This document shows, in pieces, positions 48,905 through 57,564 of a DNA stretch of 57,753 nt (positions are counted from its first letter, which is position 1; every line of letters begins with the position of its first letter). Origin of the DNA: Pseudanabaena sp. UWO311 (GTDB taxonomy: Bacteria > Cyanobacteriota > Cyanobacteriia > Pseudanabaenales > Pseudanabaenaceae). A model generated the notes under the pieces. That model saw nothing but the letters and a program-made list of their open reading frames with translations. It made no database searches and was not told the origin of the DNA. The stretch spans positions 1 through 57,753 of the forward strand of contig NZ_SJEE01000034.1 in assembly GCF_006937785.1 (NCBI RefSeq), in the 5' to 3' direction. The position numbers were made by a program, and so were the translations under genes.

Positions 48905-49672
48905 TTAGTTGGAAACTTCTTTCCCATGTTGGCGCAATAATTCCATCAGTTCGTCACGATAATCATGAAATATCTTGTGTCTTTTAACGGAAGCACTGCG
49001 ATCGGGAAGATTGATGGTGATTTCCTTTCTGACTGTGCCAGGTCTCGAACCGAGAGCGTAGATACGGTTCGCTAAAAACACTGACTCCTCTACATCGTGT
49101 GTAATCATAAAAATAGTGATATTGGTACGCTGCCAAAGATCAATCATAAATTCATGCATGGTTTCTTTGGTGTGAACGTCCAACGCTGAGAAAGGTTCAT
49201 CCATAAGTAGAACTTTTGGCTCAGAGGCTAGTGCGCGAGCGATCGCAACCCGTTGTTTCATCCCCCCCGATAATTGCTTGGGTAAAGCTTTACCAAACTG
49301 GGTCAAACCCACAACATCTAGATAGTAACTAGCGCGTTCTTTACGGAGCTTTTTCGGGACACCCAACAACTTAAGCCCAAATTCAGCATTTTCTAAAACG
49401 CTCATCCAAGGATAAAGGGTGTAGTTTTGAAAGATCATGCCGCGATCGTGTCCTGGAGCGTTAATTAATTGACCATCAACAATTACCTCGCCAGAGGTAG
49501 GGCGATCGAGCCCAGCTATTTGCCTTAATAACGTAGATTTGCCAGATCCTGAAGCTCCAACAGCGCAAATATACTCACCTTGAGCAATATTGATATTAAT
49601 ATCCTTTAAGACAACAAGCTGTCCATTTTTGGTAGGAAAGCTCTTATGGAGATTCTTGATTTGTATGTACAT
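48905..49672 (-). CDS. ABC transporter ATP-binding protein (guanidine-linked, NitT/TauT type)
   Basis: 255 aa. Walker A GASGSGKST (residues 39-47), Q-loop 'MIFQNYTLYPWMSVLENAEF', signature 'LSGGMKQRVAIARALA', Walker B 'VLLMDEPFSALDVHT', and H-loop 'ITHDVEESVFLANRIYALG'. It matches the nitrate/sulfonate/taurine (TauB/SsuB) type. It is the last gene of a leftward importer operon whose leader carries a guanidine-I riboswitch. Substrate therefore is probably guanidine or a related compound, not nitrate; this rests on context. Confidence 0.9.
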   Translation of the reverse strand: MYIQIKNLHKSFPTKNGQLVVLKDININIAQGEYICAVGASGSGKSTLLRQIAGLDRPTSGEVIVDGQLINAPGHDRGMIFQNYTLYPWMSVLENAEFGLKLLGVPKKLRKERASYYLDVVGLTQFGKALPKQLSGGMKQRVAIARALASEPKVLLMDEPFSALDVHTKETMHEFMIDLWQRTNITIFMITHDVEESVFLANRIYALGSRPGTVRKEITINLPDRSASVKRHKIFHDYRDELMELLRQHGKEVSN

Positions 49673-49697: not shown

Positions 49698-49738
49698 GTA
49701 ATTGTGTTGCGGGCGCTCCGCGTCCGCAACACAATTAC
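49698..49738. terminator. Hairpin between the ABC permease and ATPase genes
   Basis: GTAATTGTGTTGCGGGCGC (49698-49716) pairs with 49720-49738 with one G-T position. It covers the permease stop codon and lacks a strong T-run, so it may tune the permease/ATPase ratio or protect the mRNA 3' end rather than stop all transcription. Confidence 0.65.
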
Positions 49739-50580
49739 ATTTTTTGACTTGCCCACTTACAAGAAACCCGAATCATTGCTTGAAAAAAAAGATCGAAGGA
49801 TAGACCAATCACACCAATTACGATCAATCCCACAAAAATCTCGTCAGTTTTTAGAAATCTACCCGCAACACTGATGCGTCTGCCTAAACCTTCCGTAGCA
49901 GCAATTAACTCTGAGACTATGACTAATTGCCAAGCAGCCGCTAAGTTAATGCGGCAAGCATCGAGGATTCCAGGCAGTACGTGGGGAAATATGACCTGAA
50001 GTAATGCGGATCTACGTGTACCGCCCAGAATATAGGTGGATTCAATTAACTCCTTAGGGACAAACTTGACAGTATCCATCACCATTAAGGAATTGAAAAA
50101 AAATACCCCGATAAAAATCAAAGTGATTTTTGGCTCTTCTCCAATGCCTAAATAAAGAATTAATAAAGGAATAAAAGCTGGTGCAGGCATATAGCGAACT
50201 AATCCAAACAGAGGCTCTAATAAGGCGCGAATGCTAGCAAAACTTCCCATTAAGACTCCAATAGGAATTGAAAACAAACCTACCAGTAAAGCCCCTACAC
50301 CTACACGCCATAGACTGGCGAGTGTATCTTTTTGGATTTCGCCAGTACTCCACAATCTTGTAAATGCAGTAGCTACTTGTGCTGGTGATGGCAAAAACTT
50401 CGTATCAATATGTCCAAATGTTGTGATAGCCCACCATAGTGAGAATGGTAGAGCTATCGAAGTGACCATCAGGGCTGTGTTTAGTCTAGGGGGTAATTCT
50501 TCCGCGATTTGCCAAAACACACTGGAGTTAACCTTTCTCGGCCTGATAAATTCACGAATTGATTTGGGTGGTTCATTCAT
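49735..50580 (-). CDS. ABC transporter permease (guanidine-linked, NitT/TauT type)
   Basis: 281 aa, about six membrane segments (for example about residues 35-52, 96-116, 153-171, 243-263). The cytoplasmic EAA loop 'GGTRRSALLQVIFPHVLPGI' is plain. It belongs to the TauC/SsuC type of permeases. The start is 5 bp after the binding-protein gene's stop, and a hairpin of one G-T mismatch separates it from the ATPase gene. It carries the importer's substrate through the inner membrane. Confidence 0.9.
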   Translation of the reverse strand: MNEPPKSIREFIRPRKVNSSVFWQIAEELPPRLNTALMVTSIALPFSLWWAITTFGHIDTKFLPSPAQVATAFTRLWSTGEIQKDTLASLWRVGVGALLVGLFSIPIGVLMGSFASIRALLEPLFGLVRYMPAPAFIPLLILYLGIGEEPKITLIFIGVFFFNSLMVMDTVKFVPKELIESTYILGGTRRSALLQVIFPHVLPGILDACRINLAAAWQLVIVSELIAATEGLGRRISVAGRFLKTDEIFVGLIVIGVIGLSFDLFFQAMIRVSCKWASQKM

Positions 50581-50585
50581 CGTGT

Positions 50586-51641
50586 TTAGGGGGATTTCAC
50601 TTTTTTGGCATAGGCCTTGACAAAGCGATCGTCAAATAACTTGCTGGTGTCAGGAGAAGTCTTAGCCAACCCTACCTCATTTAAAAACTTGCTCATTTCT
50701 TTCGCAGCAAACGACAAAGAGTTCATATCGTTGCCTACTTCAAAAGCTTTGAGATTTTCTTCAACCGTAAAGATTTTGGTGCCATCAGCGTACTGTTTGT
50801 ACTCATCCAAACTCACGCCTGCACGTTTCGCCATAATGTCATTGGCTTTAGCTGGATTAGCCTTAATATAATCAAGCGTCGCAAACCATGAATCTACTGC
50901 GGCTTGAACTTTTTCGGGATTAGCATCAACAAATTTGCGAGTAAATACCAAGTGATCGGAAATAGCCCCTGGGAATTCCTTAGAACTAAATAGTTCTTTA
51001 CTTCCAGCCCGTTTTAATGCTTGGGTCGTAAAGGGTGCAAATACTGCTACAGCATCTACCTGTCCACCAACGAAGGCAGTAGCAGCTTTACCAGTCTCGA
51101 GAGGTACAAATTGGATGTCTTTAGGAGATAACCCTGCTTTTTTCATCCCCAATAGAAGTAGAAAATGATCGACTGTACCTTCCTCAGCTGCAACTTTTTT
51201 ACCCTTAAGATCAGCGATCGAATTAATCCCTTCGCTGACAATAATTTTGTCGTTACCAGTTGAATTGTCATTTACTAGAACAATTACCTGATCGGCTCCT
51301 CCAGCAACTGAGCTAACTGTGTCTCCTAATGTTTGACTGTTGGCATCGATTTGCCCTGCGGTTAAAGTGTTGATCGATTCTAAATAACCATCAAACCATT
51401 TCAAATCAACGGTTAGATTACTCTTCTTGAAAAAGCCTTCATCTTGAGCGACTTGCCAAGGAAACCATCCTGGCCAAGCGCTAAATCCTAAGCGCAATGA
51501 ATCTGCCGCTTTACTCGGTGAGTTACTCGGTGCGGTGCTAGCCGTAGTTTGAATATTGCTAGCGGGATTTGAGCAACTAATAGTGAGAGTTAAAGCGACA
51601 AAAAATACGAGGAGAGAGGATAGAAGCGATCGCAGTTTCAT
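50586..51641 (-). CDS. ABC transporter substrate-binding lipoprotein (guanidine-linked)
   Basis: 351 aa. Signal peptide with hydrophobic core 'LLSSLLVFFVALTLTISC' and a lipobox-like cysteine near residue 23, then a Ser/Thr-rich linker. The mature domain is of the NMT1/TauA type: 'LRLGFSAWPGWFPWQVAQDE', 'DLKGKKVAAEEGTVDHFLLL', 'FVGGQVDAVAVFAPFTTQAL'. Such domains usually bind sulfonates, nitrate, or thiamine precursors; the riboswitch directly upstream instead suggests guanidine. I recall comparable riboswitch-linked importers in other cyanobacteria. First gene of the leftward operon. Confidence 0.88.
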   Translation of the reverse strand: MKLRSLLSSLLVFFVALTLTISCSNPASNIQTTASTAPSNSPSKAADSLRLGFSAWPGWFPWQVAQDEGFFKKSNLTVDLKWFDGYLESINTLTAGQIDANSQTLGDTVSSVAGGADQVIVLVNDNSTGNDKIIVSEGINSIADLKGKKVAAEEGTVDHFLLLLGMKKAGLSPKDIQFVPLETGKAATAFVGGQVDAVAVFAPFTTQALKRAGSKELFSSKEFPGAISDHLVFTRKFVDANPEKVQAAVDSWFATLDYIKANPAKANDIMAKRAGVSLDEYKQYADGTKIFTVEENLKAFEVGNDMNSLSFAAKEMSKFLNEVGLAKTSPDTSKLFDDRFVKAYAKKVKSP

Positions 51642-51681
51642 AACAGTTATTTTAGAGAGTTGATATTCAAAGTTAATAAAA

Positions 51682-51864
51682 TGGAAAAGCCCAGAAGAAA
51701 CTTTCAGATGTTAATCCTGAAGTTCCTCCCGGGCTTTTATCCCTCCGTGTAGCCAACTAAACCAATAAAATCACTTGTAAAGGTAGTTGACCTGCTTCTC
51801 TTGGACCAGCACTTAGTTGTGAGGTATGTAGTTGTTACCTTAACCAAATCGGAACCCTAGAAAC
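51682..51864 (-). promoter_or_regulatory. Guanidine-I (ykkC) riboswitch, leftward, upstream of the ABC importer
   Basis: On the minus strand the conserved blocks come in order: CTAGGGTTCCG, then CTGGTCCAAGAGAAGCAG, then ACACGGAGGGATAAAAGCCC and GGGAGG. These match the ykkC/guanidine-I consensus as I know it. Downstream, TTCTGGGCTTTTCC can pair with AAAAGCCCGGGAG, a terminator competing with the aptamer's last stem. Guanidine binding should allow read-through to the importer genes. Confidence 0.93.
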
Positions 51865-52113
51865 AATTAAATTTTTTCTAAGAAGTTAGTAAGACAGTTA
51901 TTCCTCAGAAGTTTGTGTTATTGATCAAAACTTTTCTAGGAAACAAACTATCAAGTAGACTAGAAAGTATTTGTGCTTGAATATACAAACTTGAGATATT
52001 ATTGAATATGTATGATTAGAGGGAAAGTAATTTTTAATACAATTTGCGTTGCTGCTTAAAGAGTATTTAATGTATGATATGCAATGTTAAGTTCATTTAA
52101 CAAAAAGTATTCG

Positions 52114-52325
52114 TTTCTAGGGTTCCGATTACATTCAATTTCAGTTTAAAAAAATTGAGTTGAGAGTGATGACTGGTCCAAGAGAAGCAGCCATTTTCAA
52201 TCGATTAATTTGAAATAATTTTTATTCGATTCGGAATTGGTCACACGGAGGGATAAAAGCCCGGGAGAGTCAAATGACAGCAAACTCAATGGCGAGTTAC
52301 TGTTCAGGGCTACCTGGGCTTTCGC
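52114..52325 (+). promoter_or_regulatory. Guanidine-I (ykkC) riboswitch, rightward, upstream of the DUF1989/carboxylase genes
   Basis: Same blocks in order: CTAGGGTTCCG (from 52117), CTGGTCCAAGAGAAGCAG (from 52173), ACACGGAGGGATAAAAGCCC and GGGAGAG (from 52243). CCTGGGCTTT (52313-52322) can pair with AAAGCCCGGG of the aptamer 3' end, giving the expression platform. The T-run after it is weak, so control may be partly at another level. Confidence 0.93.
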
Positions 52326-52370
52326 TATTGTAGGTATGCTCTTCATAGCTATTTCTTTAAGGAGTTAATC

Positions 52371-53105
52371 ATGCTTACAAAATCTAACCTCGATCCAGCC
52401 TTGGTAATCTGGGACGAAGCTATTCCTGGTGGAACCTACTGGTCACATCTGATTAGGAAGGGAACAACACTGCGGATCTCTGCACCTGAAGGTTCTAGGG
52501 GTCTATCTTTTCTTTGTTATAACGCTGATAACGTGATTGAGCGTTACAATGCTGCTGACACCGCTAAAATTCAATTTAATGCATTCCTAACAAAAGGTAA
52601 ATTGCTATATACCGACATGGGACGGGTCTTATTTTCGATTACAGAAGATACATGTGGAAATCATGACACCCTATCTGGATGTAGTAATGTAGCAACTAAT
52701 TCTGCAAAATATGGAGAAGATAGTTTCTATCGCAGTGCGCGGGATAATTTTCTGTTGGCTTTGGCAAAACGGAATATGGGTAAACGCGATATCATGCCTA
52801 ATGTGAATTGGTTTGCCCATGTTGCGGTGGATGGGAACGGAAATCTGGTTTGGGCTGAGCAGGTTGCCCAAGCTGGAGACTTTATTGATTTGCGTGCTGA
52901 GATGAACGTATTAGCGGTAATTTCTAATACTCCACATGTACTTGATCCTAATCCTGTGTACGATCCTAAACCGATTCAAGTCACTGTTTGGAAATCTCCT
53001 GCACCTACAAGCGATGATCTCTGCCGTACAAGTTGCCCAGAGGCGATCAGGGGATTTCAAAATACTGATGCCTATTTTGAAGAATTATCGATTTTAGCCC
53101 ACTAG
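52371..53105 (+). CDS. DUF1989 urea carboxylase-associated protein 1 (carboxyguanidine deiminase subunit)
   Basis: 244 aa, ATG preceded by AAGGAG. DUF1989 fold with metal-binding Cys/His: 'DTCGNHDTLSGCSN' (C-x2-H), then 'KRNMGKRDIMPNVNWFAHV', then 'IDLRAEMNVLAVISNTPHVL'. Formerly 'urea amidolyase associated protein', this type has been shown to act with its partner as carboxyguanidine deiminase (CgdAB), making allophanate. The second subunit is encoded next. First gene behind the rightward guanidine-I riboswitch. Confidence 0.9.
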   Translation: MLTKSNLDPALVIWDEAIPGGTYWSHLIRKGTTLRISAPEGSRGLSFLCYNADNVIERYNAADTAKIQFNAFLTKGKLLYTDMGRVLFSITEDTCGNHDTLSGCSNVATNSAKYGEDSFYRSARDNFLLALAKRNMGKRDIMPNVNWFAHVAVDGNGNLVWAEQVAQAGDFIDLRAEMNVLAVISNTPHVLDPNPVYDPKPIQVTVWKSPAPTSDDLCRTSCPEAIRGFQNTDAYFEELSILAH

Positions 53106-53152
53106 TTTAATTTCGACTCTATATAATCACAACATTCAATTTGGAGAAGTAT

Positions 53153-53788
53153 ATGTTAGCAACTTTAGTTGAACTCGATCCTCAAAAGGCTATCTACAAT
53201 CAAGTCCTACCTGCACGCCGCCCTTGGATGCAATTGATCAAGAAGGGACAAACATTACGCATCGTCGATCTTGGCGGCAATCAGGCGGTGGATGTACTGA
53301 TTTATAATGCTGCTGATACTAGCGATCGCTACAGCGCACCTGATACGATCCGAATGCAGGGGAACATTTTTATCACGACTGGTACAAAGCTCTATTCCAG
53401 TGATGGTAATGTACTGATGACAGTTGTAAAGGATACTTGCGGTAAACATGATACCTCTGGTGGAGCCTGTAGCCGAGAGAGCAATTCGGTGCGGTATGGT
53501 TTGGATAAGAAATGGCTACATGCCTGTGTAGAGAACTACTTATATGCACTCAAAGATTATGATATGGGCAAGAGGGATTTGGTGAGTAACATCAATTTCT
53601 TTATGAATGTGCCAGTCAGTGAAGATGGAACTTTAGAGATTGTTGATGGCATCTCCGACCCCGGCAGTACGGTTGACCTTCTGGCTGAGATGGATGTACT
53701 GTTCTTGATTTCCAATTGTCCTCAGATTAATAATCCTTGCAATGCTTACAATCCTACTCCAATCCAATTGATGATTTGGGATGCCTAG
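53153..53788 (+). CDS. DUF1989 urea carboxylase-associated protein 2 (carboxyguanidine deiminase subunit)
   Basis: 211 aa from ATG 53153 (MLATLVELDP), after GGAGAAG; a TTG at 53141 would put the start over this SD and is rejected. Paralogue of the preceding protein: 'VKDTCGKHDTSGGACSRESN' is the Cys/His site; 'DYDMGKRDLVSNINFFMNV' and 'VDLLAEMDVLFLISNCPQ' match in order. The two likely form the deiminase heterodimer. A hairpin (53806-53840) separates it from the carboxylase gene. Confidence 0.9.
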   Translation: MLATLVELDPQKAIYNQVLPARRPWMQLIKKGQTLRIVDLGGNQAVDVLIYNAADTSDRYSAPDTIRMQGNIFITTGTKLYSSDGNVLMTVVKDTCGKHDTSGGACSRESNSVRYGLDKKWLHACVENYLYALKDYDMGKRDLVSNINFFMNVPVSEDGTLEIVDGISDPGSTVDLLAEMDVLFLISNCPQINNPCNAYNPTPIQLMIWDA

Positions 53789-53883: not shown

Positions 53884-56800
53884 ATGTTCTCTAAAATTCT
53901 AATTGCGAACCGTGGTGAAATTGCTTGTCGGATCATTCGCACCTGCGATCGCTTAGGGATTAAATCTGTTGCTGTTTATTCGCAAGCGGATACCTATGCT
54001 CTGCATGTATCCATGGCAAGTGAGGCGGTAGAAATTGGAGGAGCATTGGCTGCCGAGAGCTATTTACGTTGGGAAAGAATTTTAGAAGCTGCAAAACAAA
54101 CAGGGGCAGAAGCAATCCATCCTGGCTATGGATTTTTGAGTGAAAATGCCGAATTTGCGGAGGCTTGCGCCAGTCAAGGGCTCATTTTTATTGCGCCTAC
54201 GCCAAGCCAAATGCGTAGTTTTGGACTAAAGCATACAGCTAGAGAATTAGCAGCACAGAATCAAGTTCCATTACTGCCAGGGACTGGACTATTGACAGAT
54301 GTGGAGGAGGCTTTAAGGGAAGCTGACAAGATCGGTTATCCTGTGATGCTCAAAAGCACGGCGGGTGGTGGCGGTATTGGCTTGCAACTCTGTCGCAGTC
54401 AAGCACAGTTACCAGATTTGTTTGCGACAGTTAAGCGATTGAGTCAGAATAACTTCAAACAAAGTGGCATTTATTTAGAACGATATGTGGAATCAGCTCG
54501 TCATATTGAAGTGCAAATTTTTGGCGATGGCAATGGACGTGTGTTGACCTTAGGCGATCGCGATTGTTCGGTTCAACGCCGCAATCAAAAAGTAATTGAA
54601 GAGACTCCTGCGCCTAATATTTCCGATGCTTTGCGCCAACAACTTTACGAGGCAGCTTTCAAACTGGGGGCATCGGTCAATTATCAGTCAGCTGGGACTG
54701 TAGAATTTGTATTTGATAGCGATCGCCAAGAATTTTATTTTTTAGAGGTAAATACGCGACTCCAAGTTGAACATGGAGTTACAGAGGCGGTTACAGGGAT
54801 TGATTTAGTCGAATGGATGATTCGGCTGGCGGCGGGTGATGCTAGTTTTTTTGATACCTATGACCATTCTCCTCACGGTCATTCTATCCAAGTCAGAATT
54901 TATGCCGAAGATCCATCCAAAAACTTCCAACCCAGTTCGGGCGTTTTAACTGAGGTGAGATTACCAGAAGATATTCGTTGCGATCTCTGGATTGAGACTG
55001 GCACTGAGATCATGCCCTACTATGATCCGTTGTTGGCAAAATTGATTGTCTATGGAGAGACAAGAACCGATGCGATCGCCAAATTACAATCAGCTTTAGG
55101 TAATACCCAAATCGCAGGGATTGAAACCAATCTAGATTATCTTTACCAAATCCTCCAAGCACCTGAGTTTATAGCGGGACATATTCATACTAAATTTTTG
55201 AATTCTTTTAGCTATACACCCCGAACTATAGATGTCTTAGAAGCAGGTACTTTCAGCACTATTCAAGACTATCCAGGGCGTGTCGGTTACTGGAATATTG
55301 GCGTGCCACCTTCGGGAGCAATGGACACTTTAGCGTTAAGGTATGCTAATCGTTTGGTTGGTAATTCTGAAGCGGCGGCGGCGCTAGAATTTACAGTTAA
55401 TGGAGCGACCCTCCGTTTTAATGTTGATACGATCATTTGTCTGACAGGGGCGACCATGCAAGCGGAATTGGACGGAAATCCAATTGACTATTGGACAGCG
55501 ATACAGGTAAATAAAGGCAGCATTTTACAAATGAAGGCGATCGCAGGCAATGGGCTGCGATCTTATCTAGCAGTCCAAAATGGTTTTGATGTTCCTGATT
55601 ATCTGGGGAGTAAATCAACATTTACTCTAGGTAAATTTGGTGGACATTGTGGAAGGATTTTACGAATTGGTGATGTGCTTAAGCTTAATCCTTCTGACAA
55701 GCAAACAATTGATTCCGCAACACTTTTGCGTCTACCCCCAGCCCTGATCCCTGAGTATCCACAACATTGGGAAATAGGAGTGCTTTATGGCCCCCATGGC
55801 GCTCCAGATTTCTTTACCGATGATGATATCGAAATGTTTTTTGCGAGTAATTGGGAAGTGCATTATAACTCGGCAAGAACTGGTATCAGATTAATTGGAG
55901 CGAAGCCCCAATGGGCGAGAACCGATGGCGGCGAAGCGGGGCTTCACCCTTCTAACATCCATGACAATGCCTATGCGGTGGGGGCGATCGATTTTACTGG
56001 CGATATGCCGATCATTCTCGGTGTTGATGGCCCAAGCTTGGGCGGGTTTGTTTGTCCTGCCACTATTGCCCTCGCCGAGATCTGGAAGATTGGTCAGCTA
56101 AAGCCAGGGAATACCGTCAGATTTGTGCGGATTAGCCATGAGCAAGCGTTACAGCAAAAAATTCAACAAGACTATCAAGTCGCGACCCTAGAATTCAGTA
56201 CTGCCGCTATTGAAAGTAGATCCACAGAATTCTCCCTTTTGCCTAGCTCGTCCTTAAATATCGCAGCCTTGAGTACGGCGGCGATATTGCATGAATTACC
56301 CCATAACGAAATTGCCGTAAAATATCGCCGTTCGGGAGATGACAATATTCTCATTGAATATGGAGAACTAGTTCTCGATCTGAATCTTCGTTTTCGGATT
56401 CATGCTCTAATGGAATGGTTAGCTCTAAATCCTCTAGCTGGAATTTTGGAATTGACCCCTGGCATCCGATCGCTGCAAGTACATTACGACAGTCAGATCC
56501 TACCCCTAGAAAAATTACTAGAGATCTTGATTGTCGCTGAAACTGAAATGCCATCTGTGACAGAGATGGAAGTGCCAACGCGCATTGTCTACCTGCCCTT
56601 ATCTTGGGATGATGCCTCGACTAAATTGGCAATTGAGAAGTATATGCGATCAGTTAATCCTAAAGCGCCTTGGTGTCCCAGTAATATTGAATTTATTCGG
56701 CGCATCAATGGTTTAGATGATATAGAAGCTGTTAAGCAAATTATCTTTAATGCTAGTTATTTAGTGTTGGGGTTAGGAGATGTGTACTTAGGCGCTCCCG

Positions 56801-57564
56801 TGGCGACTCCTATCGACCCCCGTCATCGCCTTGTTACTACTAAATACAATCCTGCCCGTACTTGGACTCCCGAAAATGCCGTTGGCATTGGTGGCGCATA
56901 TATGTGCGTGTATGGGATGGAAGGTCCTGGTGGCTATCAGTTTTTTGGGCGCACCGTACAAATGTGGAATACCTATCGCCAAACCCCTGATTTTGAAGCA
57001 GGAAAACCTTGGCTGCTCCGCTTCTTCGATCAAGTTCGTTTTTATCCTGTCTCCGAAGCAGAGTTACTACAGCATCGACAAGATTTTATCCACGGCAGAT
57101 TTAAACTGCGGATCGAACATGAAACTTTCAGTTTGAAGAAATACAATGATTTTCTGGCAGCTATTGCCGATGAAGCGGCTATATTTAAATCTCAACAGCA
57201 GCAGTCCTTTGATGCGGAGCGCGATCGCTGGGTAGCCGATAATCTGCTTATCGATGCAGACTCCGTACCCGATATTATCCCTGACGCAGATGAATTTATT
57301 CTTCCACCCAATAGCGAACTGGTAATTTCTCATATTCCTGCCAATGTCTGGCAAGTTGTAGTGCAAGTTGGTAGTGAGGTCAAAGTAGGCGATCGCTTAA
57401 TCGTTCTAGAATCCATGAAAATGGAAATGACCATAGTTGCTAATGTGACGGGTACGGTAACAGAAATCCTCTGTAATGAGGGGAAGATGGTGTCCGTAGG
57501 GCAAGGATTATGTGTGATTTTAAAAGCTTACAGCAAATTCCGATCAAACACGCCACAAGTCTAG
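53884..57564 (+). CDS. Biotin-dependent urea/guanidine carboxylase
   Basis: 1226 aa, cytosolic. Biotin carboxylase half: 'FSKILIANRGEIACRIIRTC', glycine loop 'KSTAGGGGIGLQL', 'EVNTRLQVEHGVTEAVTGID', about residues 1-450. Carboxyltransferase (AHS2 then AHS1, KipA/KipI-like): 'VLEAGTFSTIQDYPGRVGYW' from about residue 455, then 'GGAYMCVYGMEGPGGYQFFG'. C-terminal biotinyl domain with LESMKMEM near residues 1175-1182 (biotin on the Lys). Urea carboxylases and guanidine carboxylases share this layout; the riboswitch and the deiminase partners favour guanidine. The product carboxyguanidine goes to the DUF1989 pair. Allophanate hydrolase is not in view. Confidence 0.93.
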   Translation: MFSKILIANRGEIACRIIRTCDRLGIKSVAVYSQADTYALHVSMASEAVEIGGALAAESYLRWERILEAAKQTGAEAIHPGYGFLSENAEFAEACASQGLIFIAPTPSQMRSFGLKHTARELAAQNQVPLLPGTGLLTDVEEALREADKIGYPVMLKSTAGGGGIGLQLCRSQAQLPDLFATVKRLSQNNFKQSGIYLERYVESARHIEVQIFGDGNGRVLTLGDRDCSVQRRNQKVIEETPAPNISDALRQQLYEAAFKLGASVNYQSAGTVEFVFDSDRQEFYFLEVNTRLQVEHGVTEAVTGIDLVEWMIRLAAGDASFFDTYDHSPHGHSIQVRIYAEDPSKNFQPSSGVLTEVRLPEDIRCDLWIETGTEIMPYYDPLLAKLIVYGETRTDAIAKLQSALGNTQIAGIETNLDYLYQILQAPEFIAGHIHTKFLNSFSYTPRTIDVLEAGTFSTIQDYPGRVGYWNIGVPPSGAMDTLALRYANRLVGNSEAAAALEFTVNGATLRFNVDTIICLTGATMQAELDGNPIDYWTAIQVNKGSILQMKAIAGNGLRSYLAVQNGFDVPDYLGSKSTFTLGKFGGHCGRILRIGDVLKLNPSDKQTIDSATLLRLPPALIPEYPQHWEIGVLYGPHGAPDFFTDDDIEMFFASNWEVHYNSARTGIRLIGAKPQWARTDGGEAGLHPSNIHDNAYAVGAIDFTGDMPIILGVDGPSLGGFVCPATIALAEIWKIGQLKPGNTVRFVRISHEQALQQKIQQDYQVATLEFSTAAIESRSTEFSLLPSSSLNIAALSTAAILHELPHNEIAVKYRRSGDDNILIEYGELVLDLNLRFRIHALMEWLALNPLAGILELTPGIRSLQVHYDSQILPLEKLLEILIVAETEMPSVTEMEVPTRIVYLPLSWDDASTKLAIEKYMRSVNPKAPWCPSNIEFIRRINGLDDIEAVKQIIFNASYLVLGLGDVYLGAPVATPIDPRHRLVTTKYNPARTWTPENAVGIGGAYMCVYGMEGPGGYQFFGRTVQMWNTYRQTPDFEAGKPWLLRFFDQVRFYPVSEAELLQHRQDFIHGRFKLRIEHETFSLKKYNDFLAAIADEAAIFKSQQQQSFDAERDRWVADNLLIDADSVPDIIPDADEFILPPNSELVISHIPANVWQVVVQVGSEVKVGDRLIVLESMKMEMTIVANVTGTVTEILCNEGKMVSVGQGLCVILKAYSKFRSNTPQV

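Follow-up and report, generated by a model that had tools for sequence, protein, structure and literature searches.

Introduction

Several described systems come close to the locus reported here. In Synechocystis sp. PCC 6803, the gdmH operon (sll1077-1082) combines a guanidine-I riboswitch with an SsuA-type ABC importer, and guanidine is used as a nitrogen source (PMC8390497, PMC12186494). The present locus resembles this operon in these respects but not in its build, as in Synechocystis one leader serves importer and hydrolase within one operon, and a nickel hydrolase stands where our locus has a carboxylase. In the enterobacteria Raoultella, Klebsiella, and Erwinia, two guanidine switches divide one assimilation locus between them, as they do here (PMC12186494). 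However, the enterobacterial switches belong to the guanidine-I and guanidine-II classes and the second gene set lies immediately downstream of the first, whereas the two leaders studied here are divergent and of one class. Within the same genus, Pseudanabaena biceps PCC 7429 has a uc, ucp1, ucp2 cluster made of the same carboxylase and associated genes, but it was described as a urea catabolism cluster in a report whose main text contains neither "riboswitch" nor "guanidine" (PMC6737895). From these sources, the riboswitch class, the importer type, the carboxylase route, and guanidine loci with two switches are already known. No description of paired divergent guanidine-I leaders, of leader types or of their pairing with NtcA was found among the open-literature matches listed.

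Here, we describe such a pair in a window of 57,753 nucleotides, which is the whole of contig C32 of the Pseudanabaena sp. UWO311 genome (G000; 99.98% complete, 61 contigs). The explanation that best accounts for the locus as a whole, with a probability of roughly three in four, is a set of twin opposed ON switches, probably acting as an AND gate, in which two old leader types have been joined.

Genes and aptamers of the locus

The genes and aptamers of the locus are as follows.

48905-49672, minus strand: ABC ATPase (PF00005)
49735-50580, minus strand: ABC permease (PF00528)
50586-51641, minus strand: SsuA family substrate-binding protein (TIGR01728, 228 bits, cut-off 163.5; PF09084)
51724-51871, minus strand: importer-side guanidine-I riboswitch aptamer (RF00442, 76.0 bits, E 8.8e-12)
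52106-52269, plus strand: deiminase/carboxylase-side guanidine-I riboswitch aptamer (RF00442, 64.5 bits, E 3.2e-9)
52371-53105, plus strand: UAAP1, DUF1989, putative carboxyguanidine deiminase subunit (TIGR03425, 308 bits, cut-off 206)
53141-53788, plus strand: UAAP2, DUF1989, putative carboxyguanidine deiminase subunit (TIGR03424, 343 bits, cut-off 285)
53884-57564, plus strand: carboxylase, annotated as urea carboxylase, with the guanidine-type residue Asp703 (TIGR02712, 1868 bits)

An initial annotation, made from the sequence by itself, had proposed two divergent guanidine-I riboswitches, with an importer behind one and a carboxylase route behind the other, and had named an Infernal search with the guanidine-I model as the check. 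Both proposals were borne out, the first by model matches for both leaders and the second by profile matches of the genes. When the entire window was compared with all Rfam models (cmscan), exactly two matches exceeded the gathering score, both to RF00442 (cut-off 63 bits) and both at full length (model positions 1-107 of 107). The plus-strand aptamer is just 1.5 bits over the cut-off; a permissive scan of 51400-52600 found no family that fits better than RF00442. The two aptamers, separated by a gap of 234 bases, are the sole guanidine-I matches in the 5.2 Mb genome (E 0.001), and genes for guanidine uptake or breakdown lie downstream of both.

The carboxylase has 1226 residues, and its Asp703 aligns with Asn1330 of the yeast urea amidolyase 5i8i, the position that we take to decide between guanidine and urea as substrate. 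Asp occupies this position in 14 of the 15 carboxylases compared. Asp has been described as the mark of guanidine carboxylases and Asn as that of urea carboxylases (PMC12186494). Judged by profile, UAAP1 and UAAP2, both over cut-off, would provide the two-subunit deiminase of the guanidine carboxylase pathway, and the minus-strand importer would transport guanidine. A locus serving urea instead would suit the NCBIfam names, which are urea carboxylase and urea amidolyase associated proteins, and also the carboxylase of the close relative G394 (L053:4376-8023, minus strand), which has the urea-type Asn at the Asp703 position in a locus otherwise complete, with both aptamers and all genes. It is nevertheless very improbable, given the Asp in the window and in nearly all the enzymes compared, the guanidine-I leaders flanking both gene sets, the two urease alpha genes that the genome already has, and the published re-annotation of these families (PMC12186494).

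The end of the guanidine route differs from the textbook one. No allophanate hydrolase over cut-off is present in the window genome (best match 215 bits, cut-off 511), so the textbook guanidine carboxylase pathway is incomplete there. The contig stops 189 bases beyond the carboxylase, and the flanking frames of four relatives, inspected by eye from their first residues, show no allophanate hydrolase beside the locus. Among 29 genomes chosen for the carboxylase module (in two of which, G468 and G605, UAAP1 alone is visible in the stretches read), allophanate hydrolase occurs in 9 and urease in 25. Urease is missing from four, of which two (G085, G467) carry the hydrolase and two are incomplete assemblies (G413, 76%; G605, 69%); no genome at least 90% complete among the 29 is without both urease and allophanate hydrolase. 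Carboxylase without hydrolase was noted in cyanobacteria in 2019, as urea catabolism, with uc in 19 strains and both genes in 9 (PMC6737895). Where the hydrolase is missing, allophanate would end as urea.

Competing hairpins in the two leaders

Each leader continues from its aptamer into a long hairpin.

51684-51738, minus strand: importer-side terminator-like hairpin, its 5' arm overlapping the last aptamer helix (-30.8 kcal/mol, z -8.3 against mononucleotide shuffles)
about 52255-52322, plus strand: deiminase-side terminator-like hairpin with an interrupted T tract (-30.9 kcal/mol, z -5.3)

Competing terminator-like stems had been part of the initial reading of the sequence, and as folds they are real. 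Both hairpins use AAAAGCCCGGG, which each shares with its aptamer and whose GCCC also closes the last aptamer helix. Because both structures need this GCCC, the last aptamer helix and the downstream hairpin are mutually exclusive. The importer-side hairpin is followed by a T-rich tail and the deiminase-side hairpin by an interrupted T run. A simple consensus terminator scan of the region found no terminator; neither the stems nor the tails follow the rules of that scan.

The arrangement is found beyond the window. The base of the stem is nearly invariant in alignments of 15 importer-side and 14 deiminase-side leaders, picked to represent genera. On folding, the 3' strand of the last aptamer helix forms pairs further downstream in 26/27 importer leaders, 20/22 deiminase leaders, and 36/41 gdmH leaders, with two further gdmH leaders having no recognisable segment for the fold test. 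This build agrees with the known guanidine-I ON switch (PMC12186494). We propose that two transcriptional ON guanidine riboswitches act in opposite directions from the shared gap of 234 bases. When guanidine is absent, each leader would fold the long terminator hairpin as it is transcribed and so capture the 3' strand of the last aptamer helix; with guanidine bound, that helix would be held and RNA polymerase would read through. The minus transcript would then extend into the ABC importer, and the plus transcript into both carboxyguanidine deiminase subunits and the guanidine carboxylase.

NtcA-type promoter sites

Promoters activated by NtcA in cyanobacteria follow the consensus GTAN8TAC, with TAN3T about 22 nt further on. 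The gap between the two aptamers resembles such promoters in site and spacing, albeit with a flaw on each side, and differs in that its leaders add a guanidine riboswitch. The relevant elements are listed below.

51945-51950, minus strand: -10-like TAGTTT of the putative importer-side promoter
51973-51986, minus strand: NtcA-like site GTA-N8-CAC, with one mismatch to GTA-N8-TAC, 22 nt before the TAN3T -10 box
52027-52040, plus strand: perfect NtcA-type palindrome GTAATTTTTAATAC on the deiminase side
52064-52069, plus strand: possible -10 box TATTTA, 23 nt past the palindrome, not a strict TAN3T

The importer-side site with its one mismatch recurs in G394, G396, G405, and G393. The plus-side palindrome is perfect in the window genome, G396, G410, and G393, and imperfect in G394 and G405. 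Comparison of four genomes of the genus shows 128 of the 234 gap positions to be identical, and the only fully invariant 14-base windows lie over the minus-side site; the plus-side palindrome is invariant in 10 of its 14 columns, and windows overlapping it are among the next best conserved.

Sites of this kind are, across the cyanobacteria sampled, strongly enriched ahead of guanidine-I leaders. The perfect pattern GTAN8TAC-N21-23-TAN3T stands before 7/27 importer, 3/23 deiminase, and 14/43 gdmH leaders, compared with 4/528 controls, which were taken from ahead of other genes at these loci. Tolerating one mismatch raises the counts to 19/27, 5/23, and 18/43 versus 23/528. For the palindrome GTAN8TAC alone, where in a divergent gap only the half next to a leader was credited to it, the counts are 10/27 importer, 11/23 deiminase, and 30/43 gdmH leaders versus 22/528 controls. 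The histogram of palindrome-to-box spacing peaks at 22. Shuffled sequences agree with the excess of perfect sites in all three leader groups. Once one mismatch is permitted, deiminase leaders exceed the shuffles by a modest margin (6/26, against a shuffle mean of 1.9 and a maximum of 5 in 100 shuffles); G544, G536, and G476 are included in this shuffle test and excluded from the control-region counts. The pattern is present in 0/5 leaders before the other ABC transporter type. In held-out loci, with up to one mismatch, it precedes 10/11 importer leaders, seven of which are near copies, and 8/25 deiminase leaders.

Control of the whole locus by a single ligand, as proposed in the initial annotation, is probably too simple a reading in view of the NtcA-type sites. 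Since such sites occur on both sides and are enriched before guanidine-I leaders, nitrogen status is a likely second input. It could instead be that guanidine controls the locus alone and that the sites are due to chance or belong to another regulator, as the minus-side site has a mismatch and the plus-side site has no strict -10 box and is imperfect in two close relatives. We consider this rather unlikely; against it stand the set-wide enrichment over both shuffles and 528 real upstream regions, the spacing peak at 22, and the conservation of the minus-side site. Ammonium is reported to repress the Synechocystis guanidine operon, an effect tied to Slr1821 and not to NtcA (PMC10094980). Under the two-input reading that we prefer, NtcA-type sites probably belong to the promoters of both transcripts, and the unit is probably an AND gate in which transcription would be started by nitrogen starvation and continued with guanidine. 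Transcript starts would then lie about 65-70 bases ahead of the minus-strand aptamer and about 30 bases ahead of the plus-strand one. From sequence, the gate probably applies to both arms, more firmly to the importer side.

Distribution of the divergent layout

In a sample of the phylum, guanidine-I matches were found in 121 of 386 genomes and formed one divergent pair, that of the window. The window's family has matches in 10/38 genomes, eight of which carry a divergent pair; in one of the other two, the aptamers sit on different contigs, and in the other, just one aptamer is seen, on a short contig. A class sample gave matches in 206/388 genomes, and re-listing the 62 of its multi-match genomes not already fully listed added 11 more pairs from three further families. 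Scans of more than 40 genomes were run with stricter filters, which drop weak matches. The idea that tight pairing is peculiar to the window's family was dropped once the class scan had shown it in three others. By cmscan, the layout was confirmed in named examples such as Pseudanabaena, Nostoc, Amazonocrinis, Alkalinema, and FACHB-63.

Across the cyanobacterial samples, 19 pairs have their aptamers less than 1 kb apart, and all 19 are divergent, with none in tandem and none convergent; they come from four families, and the spacing is about 210-440 bases. Four have one member below gathering, namely G605 (62.3 bits), G410 (56.3), G565 (45.9), and G422 (44.9). An importer faces a degrader in all 16 pairs with both sides readable. 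The ABC importer stands opposite UAAP1 in 12 pairs, a sodium:solute symporter opposite gdmH in three, and another ABC transporter opposite gdmH in one (G422); one pair has lost the importer (G410), and two (G442, G600) have at least one unreadable side. The symporters (PF00474) found behind guanidine-I leaders opposite gdmH (L134:10481-11986, L135:3167-4666, L139:8021-9694) are candidate guanidine importers of another kind.

The importer and deiminase modules also occur in other arrangements: as a tandem with two leaders (G129), in one operon with one leader (G099, G336), or on different contigs with a leader before each module (G060, G185, G278, G429). On the carboxylase tree, the divergent-pair label needs 5 changes when G393 (whose two aptamers sit on different contigs) and G386 are scored as non-pairs; as either may in fact be a pair, the tree fits repeated gain and repeated loss alike. 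By eye, the divergent block is flanked by different genes in related genomes (L050, L053, L054, L055) and looks as if mobile as a unit.

The Gloeomargarita-group loci L202 and L203 and the similar L078 have the divergent importer/deiminase layout with an aptamer detected on the deiminase side only; no second aptamer was found in them, by exact motifs in L078 and at gathering score in L202 and L203. In one gdmH operon, a PF06094 gene (gamma-glutamyl cyclotransferase/AIG2-like; L060:2200-2862, minus strand) follows the importer ATPase. Of 115 aptamers known from the model, the motif finder applied to named loci picks up 100, and its misses are therefore not counted as absences.

Two leader types, probably old

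The initial annotation had reported an identical 18-base segment shared in opposite orientation by the two leaders, and from this symmetry had suggested duplication of one leader. The segment is indeed there, at 51847-51864 on the minus strand and 52113-52130 on the plus strand. However, of 97 cyanobacterial aptamers examined, 92 contain its 12-base core and 7 the full 18-mer; five of these 7 are from other genomes, and three of those five stand before a different gene, gdmH. As the segment is mostly family core, it is weak evidence for duplication, and the inference drawn from it was rejected.

The two leaders of the window instead carry the marks of different types, the following being the deiminase-type one.

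52268-52272, plus strand: AGTCA, the deiminase-type signature A[AG][CT]CA, which directly follows the last aptamer helix

This signature follows the last helix in 20/22 deiminase (UAAP1) leaders, 0/27 importer leaders, and 1/43 gdmH leaders, with one importer and three gdmH leaders that have no readable position scored as lacking it; counted by genus, it is found in 12/14 deiminase versus 0/16 importer cases. Additionally, C precedes ACACGG in 19/22 deiminase versus 2/27 importer leaders. Four genomes were left out of the identity and signature analyses, namely the decayed G410, and G544, G536, and G476, whose substrate-binding protein is just 28-30% alike and belongs to another transporter. 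As the motif was first noticed in this initial set, it was tried on named loci outside the set, where it occurs in 22/25 deiminase leaders (two of the 25, L157 = G410 and L159 = G476, belong to genomes already collected but excluded from the first set) and in 0/11 importer leaders (7/11 being near copies that share one Microcoleus-type ending). Deiminase leaders without the signature are those of G085 and of G467 (a Gloeobacterales contig) in the first set; in the held-out set they are L196, titled Aphanocapsa lilacina, and two loci of the Gloeomargarita group. The signatures track the gene modules from one cyanobacterial family to the next, also where the two modules are on different contigs, and each module therefore seems to have brought its own leader.

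Sequence identity adds to this picture. In a set of 11 genomes, one per genus, 2000 permutations that swapped labels within genomes matched the observed type signal once for the aptamer and 8 times for the platform; the type effect between families is small, at 1.2 and 2.1 points of identity, respectively. Mean platform identity is lower within a genome (0.611) than between families for the same type (0.639), and the two aptamers of the window, 0.72 alike, are barely closer to each other than to leaders of other families (0.69-0.70). These values and the type-specific signatures speak against an in-place duplication and inversion that left the riboswitches as recent sister copies. Such an event would account for the identical 18-mer and for a mean aptamer identity slightly higher within genomes (0.741) than between families for the same type (0.726). 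It would also suit one base that changes jointly in paired aptamers, the A at CGG(A)GGG (window positions 51744, minus strand, and 52249, plus strand), which six genomes of the genus have in both aptamers and which is replaced by C in both paired aptamers of G390, G391, and G392, from related genera. Local gene conversion is a possible source of the same joint switch. G413, of the window's genus, has C at this position in its one known aptamer. Overall, recent duplication appears improbable, and from the sequence comparisons the pair seems to have been assembled from two old, distinct leader types and not by copying one. It probably arose by the uniting of two modules that already owned these different leaders.

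A decaying importer side in a close relative

A natural test of the two sides is offered by G410, a metagenome assembly whose carboxylase is 99% identical to that of the window. In this genome, DNA with a DDE transposase frame (PF01609; L056:10212-11380) replaces the end of the importer leader together with the importer. Its importer-side aptamer has 6 changes relative to the window, 4 of them in the conserved core, and scores 56.3 bits, below the cut-off; the opposite aptamer has 2 changes, none in the core. The UAAP1 frame is broken. By eye, the gap between the two L056 aptamers is longer than that of the window by about 106 bases, an insert that ends in inverted repeats and is apparently a small mobile element.

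These data bear on whether only the importer-side switch works, the plus-side one being passive or in decay, as its score of 64.5 bits against a cut-off of 63 and its interrupted T tract might suggest. That G410 keeps the core of the plus aptamer unchanged while the importer-side copy decays argues against it, as does the presence of deiminase-type leaders across most genera sampled and most held-out leaders. A passive plus side appears improbable, and two working switches are the preferred reading.

Implications

Taken more widely, the results may describe portable guanidine modules, each with an old guanidine-I leader type and an NtcA-type promoter, in which an importer has repeatedly been set back to back with a degrader (ABC importer with carboxylase, or sodium symporter with nickel guanidinase). 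The gaps of about 210-440 bases would then be two-input gates for nitrogen starvation and guanidine on both arms, and the carboxylase arm would probably end in urea and urease in most genomes examined. We offer this joint reading tentatively, at odds just short of even.

The locus itself presents a clear case of two copies of one riboswitch class placed back to back over the uptake and breakdown of their own probable ligand. It would link guanidine sensing to nitrogen control in cyanobacteria. Moreover, the leader-type signature allows the type of downstream gene to be predicted from the RNA alone, and the divergent gap could serve as a ready two-output guanidine sensor for laboratory cyanobacteria.
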